Origin: Anabaena sp. UHCC 0187
GTDB taxonomy: Bacteria > Cyanobacteriota > Cyanobacteriia > Cyanobacteriales > Nostocaceae
Assembly: GCF_009712035.1 (NCBI RefSeq)
Contig: NZ_VILB01000014.1
Coordinates: forward strand, 212,086 to 276,085
Length of the DNA: 64,000 bases
Direction of reading: 5' to 3'
The translations under genes and the position numbers were made by a program. This document shows, piece by piece, positions 16,605 through 22,546 of this stretch. Below the pieces are notes generated by a model. The model made no database searches, was not told the DNA's origin, and worked only from the letters and a program-made list of their open reading frames with translations. Position 1 is the first letter of the stretch. The number at the start of each line of letters is the position of its first letter.

Positions 16605-16812
16605 GCGTTTCGATTCATATTAGCAAACCCAATATGATCAAGACTTGCATAGAAGTTAATTCGGGTTTGCTGAAAAATTTTGTTAGTGATAGCGTAGCAT
16701 GACCTAAGCCATAGAGTCGGAGTCAGGAGTAAAACCCTGTTGTGGTCGGAGTTTCATTATCAATTGATGTCCTAATCCATTTCTTTATTAAAGATGCAAT
16801 TTATTTGTTGTT

Positions 16813-16840
16813 GTAGAGATGTTCCATGGAAGGTCTCTAC
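16813..16840. repeat. GTAGAGA...TCTCTAC palindrome
   Basis: A 28-base inverted repeat centred on CCATGG, with GTAGAGATGTTCCA and TGGAAGGTCTCTAC as arms (one mismatch pair). It is a known type of dispersed cyanobacterial intergenic palindrome (from memory). Confidence 0.7.
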
Positions 16841-16921
16841 TTTTCGTCTTTAACCTAGGAGAATAATTTTTTTAGCAAAAACTATCATCAAGCTTTTAAC
16901 TGTATAGATCAGAAAAAATCA

Positions 16922-16962
16922 GTAGTCTTACCTAAGTACAAATTTGCTTACTTAGGGACTAC
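16922..16962. repeat. Interrupted hairpin
   Basis: GTAGTC-tta-CCTAAGTA (16922-16938) pairs with TACTTAGGGACTAC (16949-16962); a three-base bulge interrupts an otherwise exact stem. No T-run follows. Confidence 0.5.
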
Positions 16963-17532
16963 CCCAAAATAAAAAATCCCATCAAAGCTTGTAACTACTC
17001 ACGGGTAAAAACTGTAATTCTGACCATTTACCTACAGCCCACTTTTTGAATGCAAATCCTGACTATGAATGGCTTTTACCTCTCAGAGTTAGAGGTTTTT
17101 TCTTTCCCTTTTCTCTTTCCCCTTTCTTCCTTAACCAACAAATATTGTGACCAATGGTATAGGACTTTTTCTAGCTATGGCAACTACCAACTTACTGACA
17201 ACATCCTCTATAGACTGGATATTTGGCAGTAATCACACTGGAAATACTTAAAATTAAATCCAGTTTAATTACAGTTGTGTGAATATAAGAAAGTTTTTTA
17301 TATTGAATGCATAGAGAGATTTCGCACCTCCTACTTTCACAATTCGGTTTTCTTCAAAATTGAGTTTGTAATCTATATATTCATACAAGATTACATAAAT
17401 TAGCTATCACCATCGCTAATTTCTCAAACTTTCAAAACTCGTATTATGACACTTGAGAGGATGTTTGCAAAATCCTCGAAAGTATAAATTTGCAATTCTT
17501 ACTTTATCAATTAAATTACTGAGGGCATTATC

Positions 17533-18096
17533 ATGATCCGTTTAAAACTCAACAAAGTTACCACATTAATCGCTATCTGTGGTGTAATTGCTTCCACCGG
17601 TTCTATCTTTGCAGGTAAAGCTAATGCTACCCCTACAACAGCTAATTCTACTGCTGGTTTTACTGGGACTGTAGATCCATCCTGTGCCGTCGCAACAGCT
17701 TTCACCAGTGCTACAGCTAACGCCTACACTAAAACTGCCTATGCAGGATCTGGTGCTGGTGGTACTCTACAACTTAGTGCAAGTGATACCGCCGCATTTA
17801 ACTGCAACAGTGATACAGTTGGCGTATCAGCAGTTGTAACCGCAACCCCACCTACTGCGCCAACCAACGCAACTCTTCTTGCAGGGGTGCATACTACTAC
17901 ACTTTCCAGTGATACTGCAAATACTGCTGCAACTGGGACTGGTACTACTACTGTAGCTCCCACAGGTTGGAAAACAGATACCCAAGGTAACATTGCCATT
18001 ACAGTTCAGTCTACTTGGGACCCAACCGCTACTGGACAAGAATTGTTAGATGGGACTTATACTGCTGTTGCTGTTGTTACTGTGACACCTAACTAG
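17533..18096 (+). CDS. Secreted pilin-like protein (spore-coat-U-like), probable major subunit
   Basis: 187 residues. Signal peptide ending about SIFAGKANA (residues ~24-32). The mature part is Ala/Thr/Ser-rich and beta-like, with two Cys placed as in spore-coat-U subunits (SCAVATAF and AAFNCNSDTV), and it ends with GTYTAVAVVTVTPN. That last pattern, Gly-x-Tyr followed by alternating hydrophobics, is the C-terminal strand hallmark of chaperone-usher subunits. A gagg SD at 17521 fits the ATG. A hairpin follows the gene, so it may be made in excess over the genes downstream, as expected for a major fibre subunit. The exact family is inferred. Confidence 0.65.
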   Translation: MIRLKLNKVTTLIAICGVIASTGSIFAGKANATPTTANSTAGFTGTVDPSCAVATAFTSATANAYTKTAYAGSGAGGTLQLSASDTAAFNCNSDTVGVSAVVTATPPTAPTNATLLAGVHTTTLSSDTANTAATGTGTTTVAPTGWKTDTQGNIAITVQSTWDPTATGQELLDGTYTAVAVVTVTPN

Positions 18097-18530
18097 TAGG
18101 AGACTTTCAAATAAAAAAATATTCCAAAATTTCTTGTGATGCAGATATCTTGCCTGCTAATAATAGAAGGACGGGCATCCTGCTCGTCCTGCAAGATTGG
18201 ATTACTTTTTTTTTGAATTTCTCTAGAGACAAGAACTCCCTCTATCGCTCTTTTTATTTTTATGTAATGTAAGTTCCTCATTAATAACTCAGAATGGTAT
18301 TATTGTGGAGAAAGTCTAAATCTTTCTATTACCAGATGCAAAGATTTAGACTTTTGTACGTAAAGATAATCATTTTTTTTTGCTCGATTTTACTTAACTT
18401 CAACTCATAAACTGTAAATTTTGCTCAAAATCAAAGTAACATATAGTGAAAATATCAACCAACTTTGTCAAACTCTTTTTAAACTATCAGTAGTGCTACT
18501 TCCTATAGTGAGTGACTAGAAAAAAGACAG
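18097..18530. other. 434-base gap inside the pilus-like locus
   Basis: It holds the hairpin at 18168-18190 followed by T-rich DNA, and otherwise AT-rich sequence. It could contain a second promoter for the three downstream genes. A 62-residue frame on the minus strand has no supporting feature. Confidence 0.5.
18168..18212 (+). terminator. Attenuator-like hairpin between the two pilin-like genes
   Basis: AGGACGGGCA (18168-18177) pairs with TGCTCGTCCT (18181-18190) with one wobble, and a run of nine Ts starts ~16 bases later. The stem belongs to the GGGACGGGCATCCTGCCCGTCC class of dispersed repeats. It may cut most transcripts after the first subunit gene. Confidence 0.45.
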
Positions 18531-18980
18531 ATGAAAAAACTAATTTTAGTAGCTTTAACAATCATATCTAGTCTCAATCCTACTGAGGTATTAGCACAGT
18601 TAAGTCTAACCTGCCCTACTCAGGGTAGCTTGACATTAACCAATCCATATAATCTTGCTACTACACAACCTGCCCAGTGTAATTTTGTAGTTGATAATAC
18701 TGTTTCTAATATTGATGTTACCATCACCCTATCTGAACCAACTTTAAATCAACAGGCAACTACTGGGAAAATAGATCCTGCTGGTACAAGTAGAACCGCA
18801 CAATTAACCTATACGAATAACAGTAGTAGTAAGACCATTCATCAAAATTCTAGTACAACTGATACCTTTTCAGGTTCAAGTAGCACTCCTATGGCAGTAA
18901 GTATCCAAATCCAAAGACCACAGAAATTTTTTGCTGGCTTTTATACTTATGAACTCATGATCAATATCACTTCACCTTGA
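18531..18980 (+). CDS. Secreted pilin-like protein, probable minor subunit
   Basis: 149 residues with a signal peptide (MKKLILVALTIISSLNPTEVLA, cut before QLSLTCP). The mature chain has two early Cys (LTCPTQGS and PAQCNFVV), Thr/Ser-rich beta-like sequence, and ends FAGFYTYELMINITSP, again the Gly-x-Tyr plus alternating-hydrophobic terminal strand of chaperone-usher subunits. It lies 21 bases before the chaperone gene, so the two are co-transcribed. I take it as a minor or tip subunit; no adhesin domain is evident. Confidence 0.6.
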   Translation: MKKLILVALTIISSLNPTEVLAQLSLTCPTQGSLTLTNPYNLATTQPAQCNFVVDNTVSNIDVTITLSEPTLNQQATTGKIDPAGTSRTAQLTYTNNSSSKTIHQNSSTTDTFSGSSSTPMAVSIQIQRPQKFFAGFYTYELMINITSP

Positions 18981-19001
18981 ATTTTTACGAAGGAGTAAAT
19001 A

Positions 19002-19802
19002 ATGCTGAAATTAAAATTTATAAAAAAAAGTATTTTTGCGATGACGAGTATTGGGTTTTGTGGATTATTACTATTCCATAAACCAGCAAATGCTCAAGTA
19101 AATGTATCTCCCCTAGTTATCTCTACACAAACAAAACAAGGAACAGCTACAGGCTTTATTACCCTAATGAATGCAGGAAATGAAGCAGTAAAAATGAATT
19201 TATATGCTTTACCATTTACGTATAATTTAAATGGTTTCCAAGTTTTAGAATCTAGCCCCAATGATTTATCACCCTATCTCATTTTTTCTCCTTCAGAAGT
19301 AGTTTTAGAGCCAAAACAAACCCGTAGAGTCAGATTGTTAGCTCGTCTCTTGCCCAGTATGAAATCAGGGGAATATCGAGCCGTCATTTTTTCTGAACCT
19401 TTTAAGCCAAAAAATACAAGTGGTTTGACTGTAAATACTCGACTGGGAACAGTGGTTTATGTTCGTCATGGTGAAATTCGAGAAAGTTTAATCCCCAAGG
19501 AAACTAACTATGATATCAAAAACAAAAAACTCTATTTGTTAGTTAAAAATGAAGGAAATGTTACTATTCGTTCTCAAGGTAGATGGGAATTAAAACAAGC
19601 CGGAAAACCAGGGTTTCAAGGGGAAATTTCTAAGATTACCATTATTGCAGAAGGAACAAGAAATGTTCCCATCACTATTAAAAAAGACCAAACAAAAGAG
19701 TTAATACCAGCGGGGAATTATCAGCTTACAGGAGAATTGTCTTGGGGAGATCCCCTGAATCCGACAAAAGTACCTTTTAGTTTACCAGTTACTATTCCAT
19801 AA
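19002..19802 (+). CDS. PapD-like periplasmic pilus chaperone
   Basis: 266 residues, preceded by an AAGGAG SD. The signal peptide ends PANAQ (~32). Then comes an Ig-like N-terminal domain (VNVSPLVISTQTKQGTATGF, LMNAGNEAVKMNLYALPF) with the chaperone G1-strand-type motif LEPKQTRRVRLLARL carrying the basic residues expected near the subunit-binding cleft, and a second beta domain with VKNEGNVTIRSQGRWEL. In known systems such chaperones cap subunits in the periplasm by donating a strand and deliver them to the usher. Two subunit-like genes precede it and an usher-like gene begins two bases after its stop codon. Confidence 0.7.
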   Translation: MLKLKFIKKSIFAMTSIGFCGLLLFHKPANAQVNVSPLVISTQTKQGTATGFITLMNAGNEAVKMNLYALPFTYNLNGFQVLESSPNDLSPYLIFSPSEVVLEPKQTRRVRLLARLLPSMKSGEYRAVIFSEPFKPKNTSGLTVNTRLGTVVYVRHGEIRESLIPKETNYDIKNKKLYLLVKNEGNVTIRSQGRWELKQAGKPGFQGEISKITIIAEGTRNVPITIKKDQTKELIPAGNYQLTGELSWGDPLNPTKVPFSLPVTIP

Positions 19803-19804
19803 AG

Positions 19805-22546
19805 ATGAAACTCGTACCTGTCAAATATGCAGGGCTTAAATTTGTAGGCTTAATTGTAGCAAACTCTAGCATTATCGGTGGGATGATGTCAATTTTTCTC
19901 ATATATCCACCCGTGAATGCTCAGGAGTTTAGAAATGTATATTTAACTGACAATTCTACTGTTTTAGAACCTAATCAAGCTCCTGCTGCTAGTAAAACAC
20001 CATTATCAGGAAAATTTACGATTCTCCCGCTGGGAATTAATGTCGGTGGGAATAATGTAATTCCTTCCGTCACAGTTAAGGGTTTAGAGAATGGCAAAGA
20101 AGCCATTGATTTTAATCACTGGCTAGTTCCTTTTGCTGATGTCATTAAAGCCTTAAAATTCAACGTCACCAAAAAAGATGATGGTCAATTAGAATTACGT
20201 TCTGTTGGTTTAATCATAAAATTTGATTCAAATATACTGATTAATGACCCTGATATCGGTCAAGCTATTTCTGTAGAACAAATTAGAAATATTTTAAAAA
20301 TTCCTGCTGAATTTAGTATAGCAGAATATGCTCTTGTTTTAACTCCATCTTGGTTAACAAAAAGTCTTAATGATAGACGATACCAGGAAAAAGAACAACC
20401 AGTAATCTTGGCAGGATTACCTCAAATCAATCCTCCTTTTTTGAGCTTGACTGGTATTTCTCAACGAACAAATTTGAGTCAAACTCAGGGAACAAATTTT
20501 AGTAATAATAATTTAAATTACAACTCAGAATTTAAAACATTAGGAAGTTTTGTTGGGGGAAGCTTATTTTCAAGAATTCAACAACTTAATAGTAATGTAG
20601 GCAGCAACTGGCAAATAAACGAACTGCAATATTTTCATCCTAGTCCTTATACAGACTATATTATCGGCACTCAAGCACCTTTTTGGGGACGATTTGATCG
20701 CAATCAAAGTGAGTATTTTGGTGCTACAATAATTCAACGCTTAGGCTACACTCCTGCAAATAATCCTAGTTTTTCCTATGGAGGTGTTAATCCTCTAGAA
20801 AAACTTAATACTAATCAAGTTCTGCGAACCATAGCCGGAAAAGCTGCCCCTGGAACTTTAGTACAATTAGTTACTCAAAATGGTAATGTGATAGTTGGGG
20901 AACAACTTGTAGATAATTCAGCAAAATACCGCTTTGAAAATGTGGTGACAGCTAGTAATTCTTTTACAGGTAATGCAGAAAGTCAGAATTATAAACTTCT
21001 GCTTTATCCAGGAGGAAATTTGAGTGGTAAACCAGAAGAAATTCCTCTAAATTATCGCAATTTACAAGGTCAAATCAATAAAGGAAAATCAGCTTTCGTT
21101 ATCAGCGCAGGGACACAAAGAAATCCCACAAATCAAAGTTTTTTCGGGAATCTTGGTGATTTTCAAGGTGGAGCTACTTATTATTTTGGACTTACTGATG
21201 AAATTACTTTAGGTACTGGGGTAGTTTATGATGGTTCGACTAAACCATACAGCGAAATATTGTATCAACCAGTGAATTCTCCTCTAACTTTTAAAGTTGG
21301 GGCATTAACTGGTAATCAAATTAGTTTTAACGCAGATATTAGCTACAGAACCAATAATTTTAGCTTAGGTTTTGGCGGTGATGAAAAATCTTATAATTCA
21401 AATTTATATTGGGCTTTAAGCCGAAAAATTAGTTTATTTTCTAACTGGTATTCTGGTGGGACAAATAATCGCTTAGAAACAGGTTTTAACTTAAACTTAC
21501 AACCAGTTTTTCTGAGTTTGAGTTATGATTATAAAAATAATATCAATGGTGCGTTAAATGCTCGTTTCGATCCTTTTCTGATCGGCATTCGTAAATATAA
21601 CCAAAATATTTCTTCTGAATTAATCTATAATCTTTCTGGCAATCGGCTTTTTAGCTCTACAGGCAATGCAATTCGCCTAAAATATGATACTGATGATAAA
21701 AACTATTTAGGCAGCCTGAATTTGATTTATCGAACTCCTTGGAAGAACAAAGATGGTCGGAGTTTATTAGACTTAGAATTTGGTTATGGTAGTGGTTCTC
21801 AAGGGAATGGGATAATCACATCTGCTTCTACAACTCTAGTTCCTGGTTTAGGATTAAGATTAACTTATAGTGAAGTCAGTTTAAGTAATAATAATTCTTC
21901 TTTAAGTCTCAATTTATTTACCAGTTTGTTATTACAACCTAGTATGAATTTCAGCAGTGACGAGACAAAATTAGAAAAATTACGCACTCAAGGGGGAATC
22001 TTTCTCCAACCCTTTCTGGATAAAAATAATAATGGTCGTCATGATCATGGAGAAGATTTTTATACTGAAGATATAGAATCACTATTCTTAATTAATAATC
22101 AACCTCTGAATAGATTAGGTGTCTCTCGTCCAAAAATTGTTACCAAAGGGGCATTATTTGAAGTTCCACCAGGTAATTATCGTTTAGATATAGATCCAGC
22201 GGGTTTTCCTCTTGGTTGGAAAGCTATCCAACCAGCCTATGCAGTTAAAGTTTCTCCTGGAACTTATACGACTGTTTCAATACCTCTGATTCCATCGTAT
22301 GTTGTGACAGGAAGAGTGATAGATAAAGAAGGAAAACCGATAACAGGAGTTAGTGTAGAATTTGTTTCTCGTAGTCATCCAGAAAAACGAGTTACTTCAG
22401 TAACTAACAGCGCTGGAATTTACTATTTAGAAGATTTAAATATAGATATATATAATGTATTTATTGATAGCAAACTAGCCCAACCAAATACCTTAGAAAT
22501 TAATACAAATTCCCAGACCTTCTTAGAATTAAATTTACAGCCATAA
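19805..22546 (+). CDS. Divergent outer-membrane usher-like protein with C-terminal repeat domains
   Basis: 913 residues; hydrophobic signal region ending NAQE (~40). About 55-200 forms a mixed domain that I do not recognise. About 340-375 looks like an usher plug/E-set strand pattern (GKAAPGTLVQLVTQNGNVIV), then the passage QGQINKGKSAFVISAGTQRN, which resembles the usher segment entering the barrel. About 385-725 is a run of amphipathic strands rich in Tyr, Asn and Gly, as in a beta-barrel. About 738 carries a calcium-type loop, DKNNNGRHDHGED, and about 832-913 a carboxypeptidase-regulatory-like domain (VVTGRVIDKEGKPITGVSVE). It would secrete and assemble the two subunits. Overall similarity to classical ushers is weak. 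Confidence 0.6.
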   Translation: MKLVPVKYAGLKFVGLIVANSSIIGGMMSIFLIYPPVNAQEFRNVYLTDNSTVLEPNQAPAASKTPLSGKFTILPLGINVGGNNVIPSVTVKGLENGKEAIDFNHWLVPFADVIKALKFNVTKKDDGQLELRSVGLIIKFDSNILINDPDIGQAISVEQIRNILKIPAEFSIAEYALVLTPSWLTKSLNDRRYQEKEQPVILAGLPQINPPFLSLTGISQRTNLSQTQGTNFSNNNLNYNSEFKTLGSFVGGSLFSRIQQLNSNVGSNWQINELQYFHPSPYTDYIIGTQAPFWGRFDRNQSEYFGATIIQRLGYTPANNPSFSYGGVNPLEKLNTNQVLRTIAGKAAPGTLVQLVTQNGNVIVGEQLVDNSAKYRFENVVTASNSFTGNAESQNYKLLLYPGGNLSGKPEEIPLNYRNLQGQINKGKSAFVISAGTQRNPTNQSFFGNLGDFQGGATYYFGLTDEITLGTGVVYDGSTKPYSEILYQPVNSPLTFKVGALTGNQISFNADISYRTNNFSLGFGGDEKSYNSNLYWALSRKISLFSNWYSGGTNNRLETGFNLNLQPVFLSLSYDYKNNINGALNARFDPFLIGIRKYNQNISSELIYNLSGNRLFSSTGNAIRLKYDTDDKNYLGSLNLIYRTPWKNKDGRSLLDLEFGYGSGSQGNGIITSASTTLVPGLGLRLTYSEVSLSNNNSSLSLNLFTSLLLQPSMNFSSDETKLEKLRTQGGIFLQPFLDKNNNGRHDHGEDFYTEDIESLFLINNQPLNRLGVSRPKIVTKGALFEVPPGNYRLDIDPAGFPLGWKAIQPAYAVKVSPGTYTTVSIPLIPSYVVTGRVIDKEGKPITGVSVEFVSRSHPEKRVTSVTNSAGIYYLEDLNIDIYNVFIDSKLAQPNTLEINTNSQTFLELNLQP

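Follow-up and report, generated by a model that had tools for sequence, protein, structure and literature searches.

A probable divergent chaperone–usher assembly system encoded by four genes of Anabaena sp. UHCC 0187

Introduction

In excerpts from Schuergers and Wilde (PMC4390875) chaperone–usher loci of cyanobacteria are described that carry PF05229, PF00345 and PF00577, and excerpts on Nodularia (PMC5853447) and Thermosynechococcus (PMC7005997) report the same kind of locus. A Synechocystis mutant of a PF00577-type usher flocculates like the wild type, according to an excerpt of PMC6755745. Here we describe four consecutive genes in a stretch of 64,000 nucleotides from Anabaena sp. UHCC 0187 (the window in the following), which very probably encode a complete chaperone–usher assembly system belonging to a divergent, non-classical branch. 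Chandra and others are reported to have dealt with a Synechocystis chaperone–usher system in a preprint of 2017, known to us through a reference list. A sequence-only reading of this DNA had likened the order and features of the genes to chaperone–usher systems, which is supported by fold and by linkage, although such loci had already been described in cyanobacteria in the three papers named first. Cyanobacterial chaperone–usher systems as such are thus published; among the matches listed from open-licence PMC papers we found no account of the present divergent branch.

Results and Discussion

An open reading frame (ORF) listing of the window shows all four genes intact, on the plus strand and in the order subunit, subunit, chaperone, usher, just where the sequence-only reading had put them (Table 1). 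The gaps are 434 bases between the two subunit genes, 21 between subunit 2 and the chaperone and 2 between chaperone and usher. The pattern stands above chance, as dozens of genomes encode relatives of the 913- and 266-residue proteins in which residues are conserved.

The AlphaFold2 model of the 913-residue protein (pLDDT 82) shows a barrel, an inserted plug and C-terminal domains, in agreement with the outer-membrane protein of plug-like and barrel-like parts proposed before, and FimD/PapC ushers are its top matches in both structure comparisons, at about 10–13% identity in the structural alignments. No solved alternative usher was among the matches listed in one of these comparisons. Solved ushers possess 24 barrel strands and a plug inserted after strand 6. 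The only match above the curated cut-off in single-sequence Pfam and NCBIfam scans of the window proteins was PF13620 at the usher C-terminus, and as domains like PF13620 are also known from TonB-dependent receptors, the protein might be another outer-membrane barrel, a porin or such a receptor, lying beside a chaperone gene by chance. A weak SusC/RagA match in one of 53 usher relatives (E 0.032) would fit this, but the structure searches rank ushers first and not a non-usher barrel, the profile comparison with FhuA gives 0.4 and the PF13620 domain sits C-terminally here, which makes this explanation extremely improbable.

The chaperone is modelled with two Ig-like domains (pLDDT 89). Its model aligns with CsuC, CfaA, FimC and PapD, CsuC being among the best fold matches when Foldseek candidates were realigned with VIA-align. 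The PapD-like nature claimed for the 266-residue protein is supported: rather than falling outside the PapD fold the model leads to pilus chaperones, though a Gram-positive protein ranks higher, as weighed below. The fold predicted by computation is thus that of a two-domain chaperone next to an usher with barrel, plug after strand 6 and C-terminal beta domains. Arg126 is kept in 42/42 chaperones and corresponds to the anchoring Arg (strand F, domain 1) of archaic and alternative chaperones, with the numbering checked on EcpB; an invariant Pro of domain 1 is likewise present in all 42. One detail had to be corrected: the basic strand LEPKQTRRVRLL is not the donor strand in the model and precedes the Arg126 strand (residues 123–133). 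The next strand, 148–156, is in the model the likely G1 donor.

The gene order across cyanobacteria, a survey of which had been suggested, was analyzed in 60 of 80 named loci, those with at least 3.5 kb upstream. A same-strand chaperone adjoins the usher in 48 of them (56 with a chaperone anywhere in the locus), and 42 have both the adjoining chaperone and a subunit. Near the usher an ORF with signal peptide and GxY ending was found in 48/60 loci compared to 24/268 other ORFs of 110–420 aa in the same loci, the first count being per locus and the second per ORF, with a loose motif of which 4/91 matches were later dropped. The usher family profile was matched at E 1e-15 by 36 of 386 genomes from the phylum. 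This usher type is present in 29 (E below 1e-40), the other seven being six that look like the intermediate type described below by matched region and ORF length and one fragment, and the chaperone is present in 26 (E below 1e-60); both cuts were set after the searches. Usher and chaperone occur together in 25 genomes and just one of them in five (Fisher p 4.5e-34, relatedness ignored), showing that the two are inherited together. PF00577 is found in 19 of the same 386 genomes, six of which hold both usher types, and Pfam-based surveys of cyanobacterial surface fibres would therefore overlook this system.

The two proteins with a signal peptide and a terminal Gly-x-Tyr strand belong to a larger set. 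Sixty subunit proteins, including the two from the window, have in common a signal peptide and a C-terminal strand GxYxYxVTxTxTP, whose Tyr is the only invariant column, and most contain two Cys. An N-terminal alternating strand, two Cys and the GxY strand are mostly visible in the sequences, pilin-like features that may reflect an incomplete Ig fold with a donor strand. For 89 subunits (91 found, four spurious ones removed, two window ones added) the position of the first Cys was measured using a crude cleavage rule of our own. It lies at mature residue 14–20 in 46, behind an alternating strand such as VDVPFTGTV, further on in nine and at residues 1–7 in 16, while 18 have no Cys. From the 16 early-Cys proteins three look mis-cut or unclear, four have 339–377 residues and nine are short, their N-terminus leaving no space for a donor strand. 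Subunit 2 of the window is one of these nine since its first Cys follows five residues past the predicted cleavage. Eight of the nine end 3–40 bases ahead of the chaperone start (the ninth, L106, follows the usher). A position directly ahead of the chaperone is likewise taken by the four long proteins (L054, L056, L067, L093), the last 160 residues of the one from L067 matching PF00419 (Fimbrial) below cut-off (E 0.03). A gene ahead of the chaperone that lacks the donor strand may encode a tip or initiator; subunit 1 is likely the main subunit and subunit 2 likely the tip or initiator subunit. In L098 the subunit directly ahead of the chaperone has a donor strand.

The same machinery could also build a polymer that is not a fibre, with short chains linked by donor strands forming a coat or a capsule-like layer. 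This has been suggested for the spore coats of Myxococcus, in whose formation a chaperone–usher-like pathway is cited in the reference list of PMC3610870 and in an excerpt of PMC7005997. The large differences of the subunit genes between loci would suit such a layer, but the N-terminal polymerisation strand on subunit 1 and the adhesin-sized protein ahead of the chaperone gene in four loci suit fibres, and we regard the coat as unlikely.

Family models recognize the system poorly. When single sequences were searched against Pfam, NCBIfam and PDB, neither an usher nor a chaperone family rose above cut-off. PF00577 (Usher) matched 0/53 usher relatives and nothing in the source genome at E 0.01, PDB profile searches with the usher returned nothing relevant and a plasmid collection held no usher match. 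PF00345 (PapD_N) matched neither the window chaperone at E 1 nor any protein of the source genome at E 0.1, and since it is not among the families listed for the 42 chaperone relatives (25 of 27), at most one of these matches it; PF05229 (SCPU) matched 0/60 subunits. In profile comparisons the usher aligns with the cyanobacterial PF00577 ushers and the chaperone with the cyanobacterial PF00345 chaperones, while the usher N-terminal domain matches the intermediate cyanobacterial type (prob 91.5). With E values up to 0.1, in listings that give no curated cut-offs, CooC_C was found in 8/53 ushers (best E 0.0025, weak) and TcfA in 17/42 chaperones (best E 6.9e-6), and the only PDB sequence match of the chaperone profile was EcpB, also weak (E 0.092).

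From these alignments and from CsuC being among the best fold matches one could conclude that the system is a fast-evolving archaic (sigma) member already known in cyanobacteria and no separate branch. We consider this possible but rather doubtful, as PF00577, PF05229 and PF00345 are nearly or entirely unmatched and the weak CooC_C, TcfA and EcpB matches lean to the alternative pathway. The same results fit the separate branch suggested by the sequence-only reading, which may lie outside the sigma group.

Several observations weigh against a divergent chaperone–usher system as a whole. The usher model contains 26 barrel strand segments (DSSP), and in one of its structure comparisons lower-ranked ushers tie with porins by Z. 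The usher profile fails with E. coli FimD (prob 13.0) and EcpC (prob 2.6), its N-terminal domain does not match the PF00577 set (0.2), and in a family HMM search five of eight PF00577 ushers are reached at E 1.7e-10 to 0.034 while LptD (0.24) outranks two others. For the chaperone, WxLIP of Gram-positives ranks first by fold, above the pilus chaperones, and WxLIP_HBD (Pfam) matches 4/42 (best E 0.0035), but the PF06030 model gave nothing over cut-off in 12 genomes and thus no sequence support for this link. The domain 2 anchor Tyr of CsuC/EcpB is a Tyr in just 2/42 at the aligned place (Thr213) and its Arg partner (Arg190) is present in 25/42, both counts depending on the alignment; the Tyr is mostly absent from cyanobacterial PF00345 chaperones as well. 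No fimbrial model matched the subunits except MrpH_C (2/60, best E 0.0098), and a tip-like gene was found in just 13/54 loci and in none of the others.

For the chaperone–usher system that we favour, a mechanism can be proposed by analogy with the family. Sec would export the subunits, and the chaperone would bind the GxY C-terminal strand of each, with Arg126 gripping the C-terminal carboxylate in the non-classical manner of CsuC/EcpB, and lend its G1 strand. The N-terminal domain of the usher would take up the chaperone–subunit complexes and the plug would open. Subunit 2, having no N-terminal donor strand, would come first and form the tip of the fibre. Copies of subunit 1 would be added behind it, the N-terminal strand of each displacing the chaperone strand on the preceding subunit, and the usher would serve as the exit for the fibre. 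The most likely role of the system is in adhesion or aggregation, as a thin fibre on the cell surface, the formation of which we infer.

Table 1: Features of the four-gene locus (positions in the window).
Feature	Position	Strand	Remarks
Subunit 1	17533..18096	+	187 aa; signal peptide, N-terminal strand TAGFTGTVDPSC, two Cys, C-terminal GTYTAVAVVTVTPN
Subunit 2	18531..18980	+	149 aa; signal peptide, two Cys, C-terminal GFYTYELMINITSP
Periplasmic chaperone	19002..19802	+	266 aa; two Ig-like domains; contains LEPKQTRRVRLL
Chaperone Arg126 codon	19377..19379	+	aligned with subunit-anchoring Arg89 of EcpB; CsuC likewise by published account
Outer-membrane usher	19805..22546	+	913 aa
Usher N-terminal domain	20012..20344	+	about residues 70–180; predicted model
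Usher barrel	20441..21931	+	residues 213–709, interrupted by plug; predicted model
Usher plug-like beta domain	20816..21049	+	residues 338–415, inserted after sixth barrel strand; predicted model
Usher C-terminal beta domains	21989..22543	+	residues 729–913; PF13620 (CarboxypepD_reg) at 834–904

Promoter and terminator patterns at 16605–18620 showed little or no excess over shuffles (9 vs 5.9, sd 2.4, and 1 vs 1.2). An enrichment of cAMP-receptor sites in the window was rejected, with 21 matches compared to 29.1 expected by chance.

To the evolutionary history, a quick usher tree, in which the window row was flagged for unusual composition, contributes that the window usher clusters with one genome of the same genus (91%) and with Pseudanabaena (65% identity, SH-aLRT 100), apart from its own second copy (40%). 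A close copy is present in just two of 16 genomes of the genus, that of the window and one other, and the operon was likely acquired laterally. Between the chaperone and usher genes of the 91% identical locus (genome G005, L032, 10973–12038) lie an additional subunit 1 and a fragment of a chaperone. In the genus of the window three types of usher operon adjoin or lie within 1.7 kb of one gene, by eye nadB (L032, L034, L044, L046, L048): the second copy of the window's own genome (G000:C54); the window type, flanked in G005 by a copy of this gene on either side; and, in three genomes, a third type. This neighbourhood looks like a site of operon exchange. Two Thiotrichaceae assemblies, one of them Thiomargarita (L067, L085), hold closely similar usher copies nested in the cyanobacterial tree, likely through transfer; as two assemblies agree, contamination is less likely.

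Related types were also seen in the phylum. The intermediate cyanobacterial type (L153, L154, L155, L051) has ushers of about 1030–1250 aa (PF00577 was absent from both of those scanned), PF00345 on the chaperones in three of four loci and two pilin-like genes upstream in L153–L155. Small genomes (1.6–2.2 Mb) of another class of the phylum, probably the non-photosynthetic Vampirovibrionia, carry a chaperone relative in 26/386 genomes, one of which matches PapD_N at E 0.05. In nine of ten such loci (L162–L171, from G145, G376, G205, G384, G372, G075, G368, G297, G078 and G319) two signal-peptide GxY ORFs lie between this relative and an ORF of 913–1015 aa; the large ORF is split in two in L167 and L163 has a different gene order. 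PF00577 is absent in the four large proteins scanned. Their C-terminal part matches the window usher family (prob 97.1) while the barrel gives 1.4, and 64.6 with the PF00577 set. The large protein is found in 33/386 genomes, including all 26 with the chaperone relative, seven of the 33 having supplied the profile. It is a quite improbable idea that an usher radiation of its own, unseen by family models, runs through the phylum as a whole, filamentous bloom formers and the small-genome class alike, with chaperones structurally between PapD-like and WxLIP. If true, the donation of strands to incomplete surface proteins would predate the pilus systems of proteobacteria, and WxL clusters and chaperone–usher pili would be two descendants of it.

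Comparison with known systems

For cyanobacterial fibres that are as yet uncharacterised the locus points to specific genes, and it offers a testable system in organisms where cell aggregation and attachment matter. WxLIP of Gram-positives differs from the window chaperone by its place in a cell-wall cluster and its transmembrane helix, as well as by the unmatched PF06030. To the alternative (alpha) ECP, CFA/I and Tcf systems the window family may be linked by the weak TcfA, EcpB and CooC_C matches, whereas EcpC is not matched by its usher profile. The archaic (sigma) Csu system and the cyanobacterial cccS/cccP/slr0019-type loci, as excerpted from PMC4390875, have the same order subunit–chaperone–usher and the chaperone anchoring Arg, and the cyanobacterial PF00577 loci also carry GxY C-terminal strands as the window subunits do; unlike archaic Csu, the window family lacks PF05229, PF00577 and, with at most one exception, PF00345, and does not keep the CsuC anchor Tyr. 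The classical FimD/PapC ushers of type 1 and P pili share with the window usher the predicted barrel, plug after strand 6 and C-terminal domains, but the latter has no PF00577 match and its C-terminal domain is scored by PF13620.
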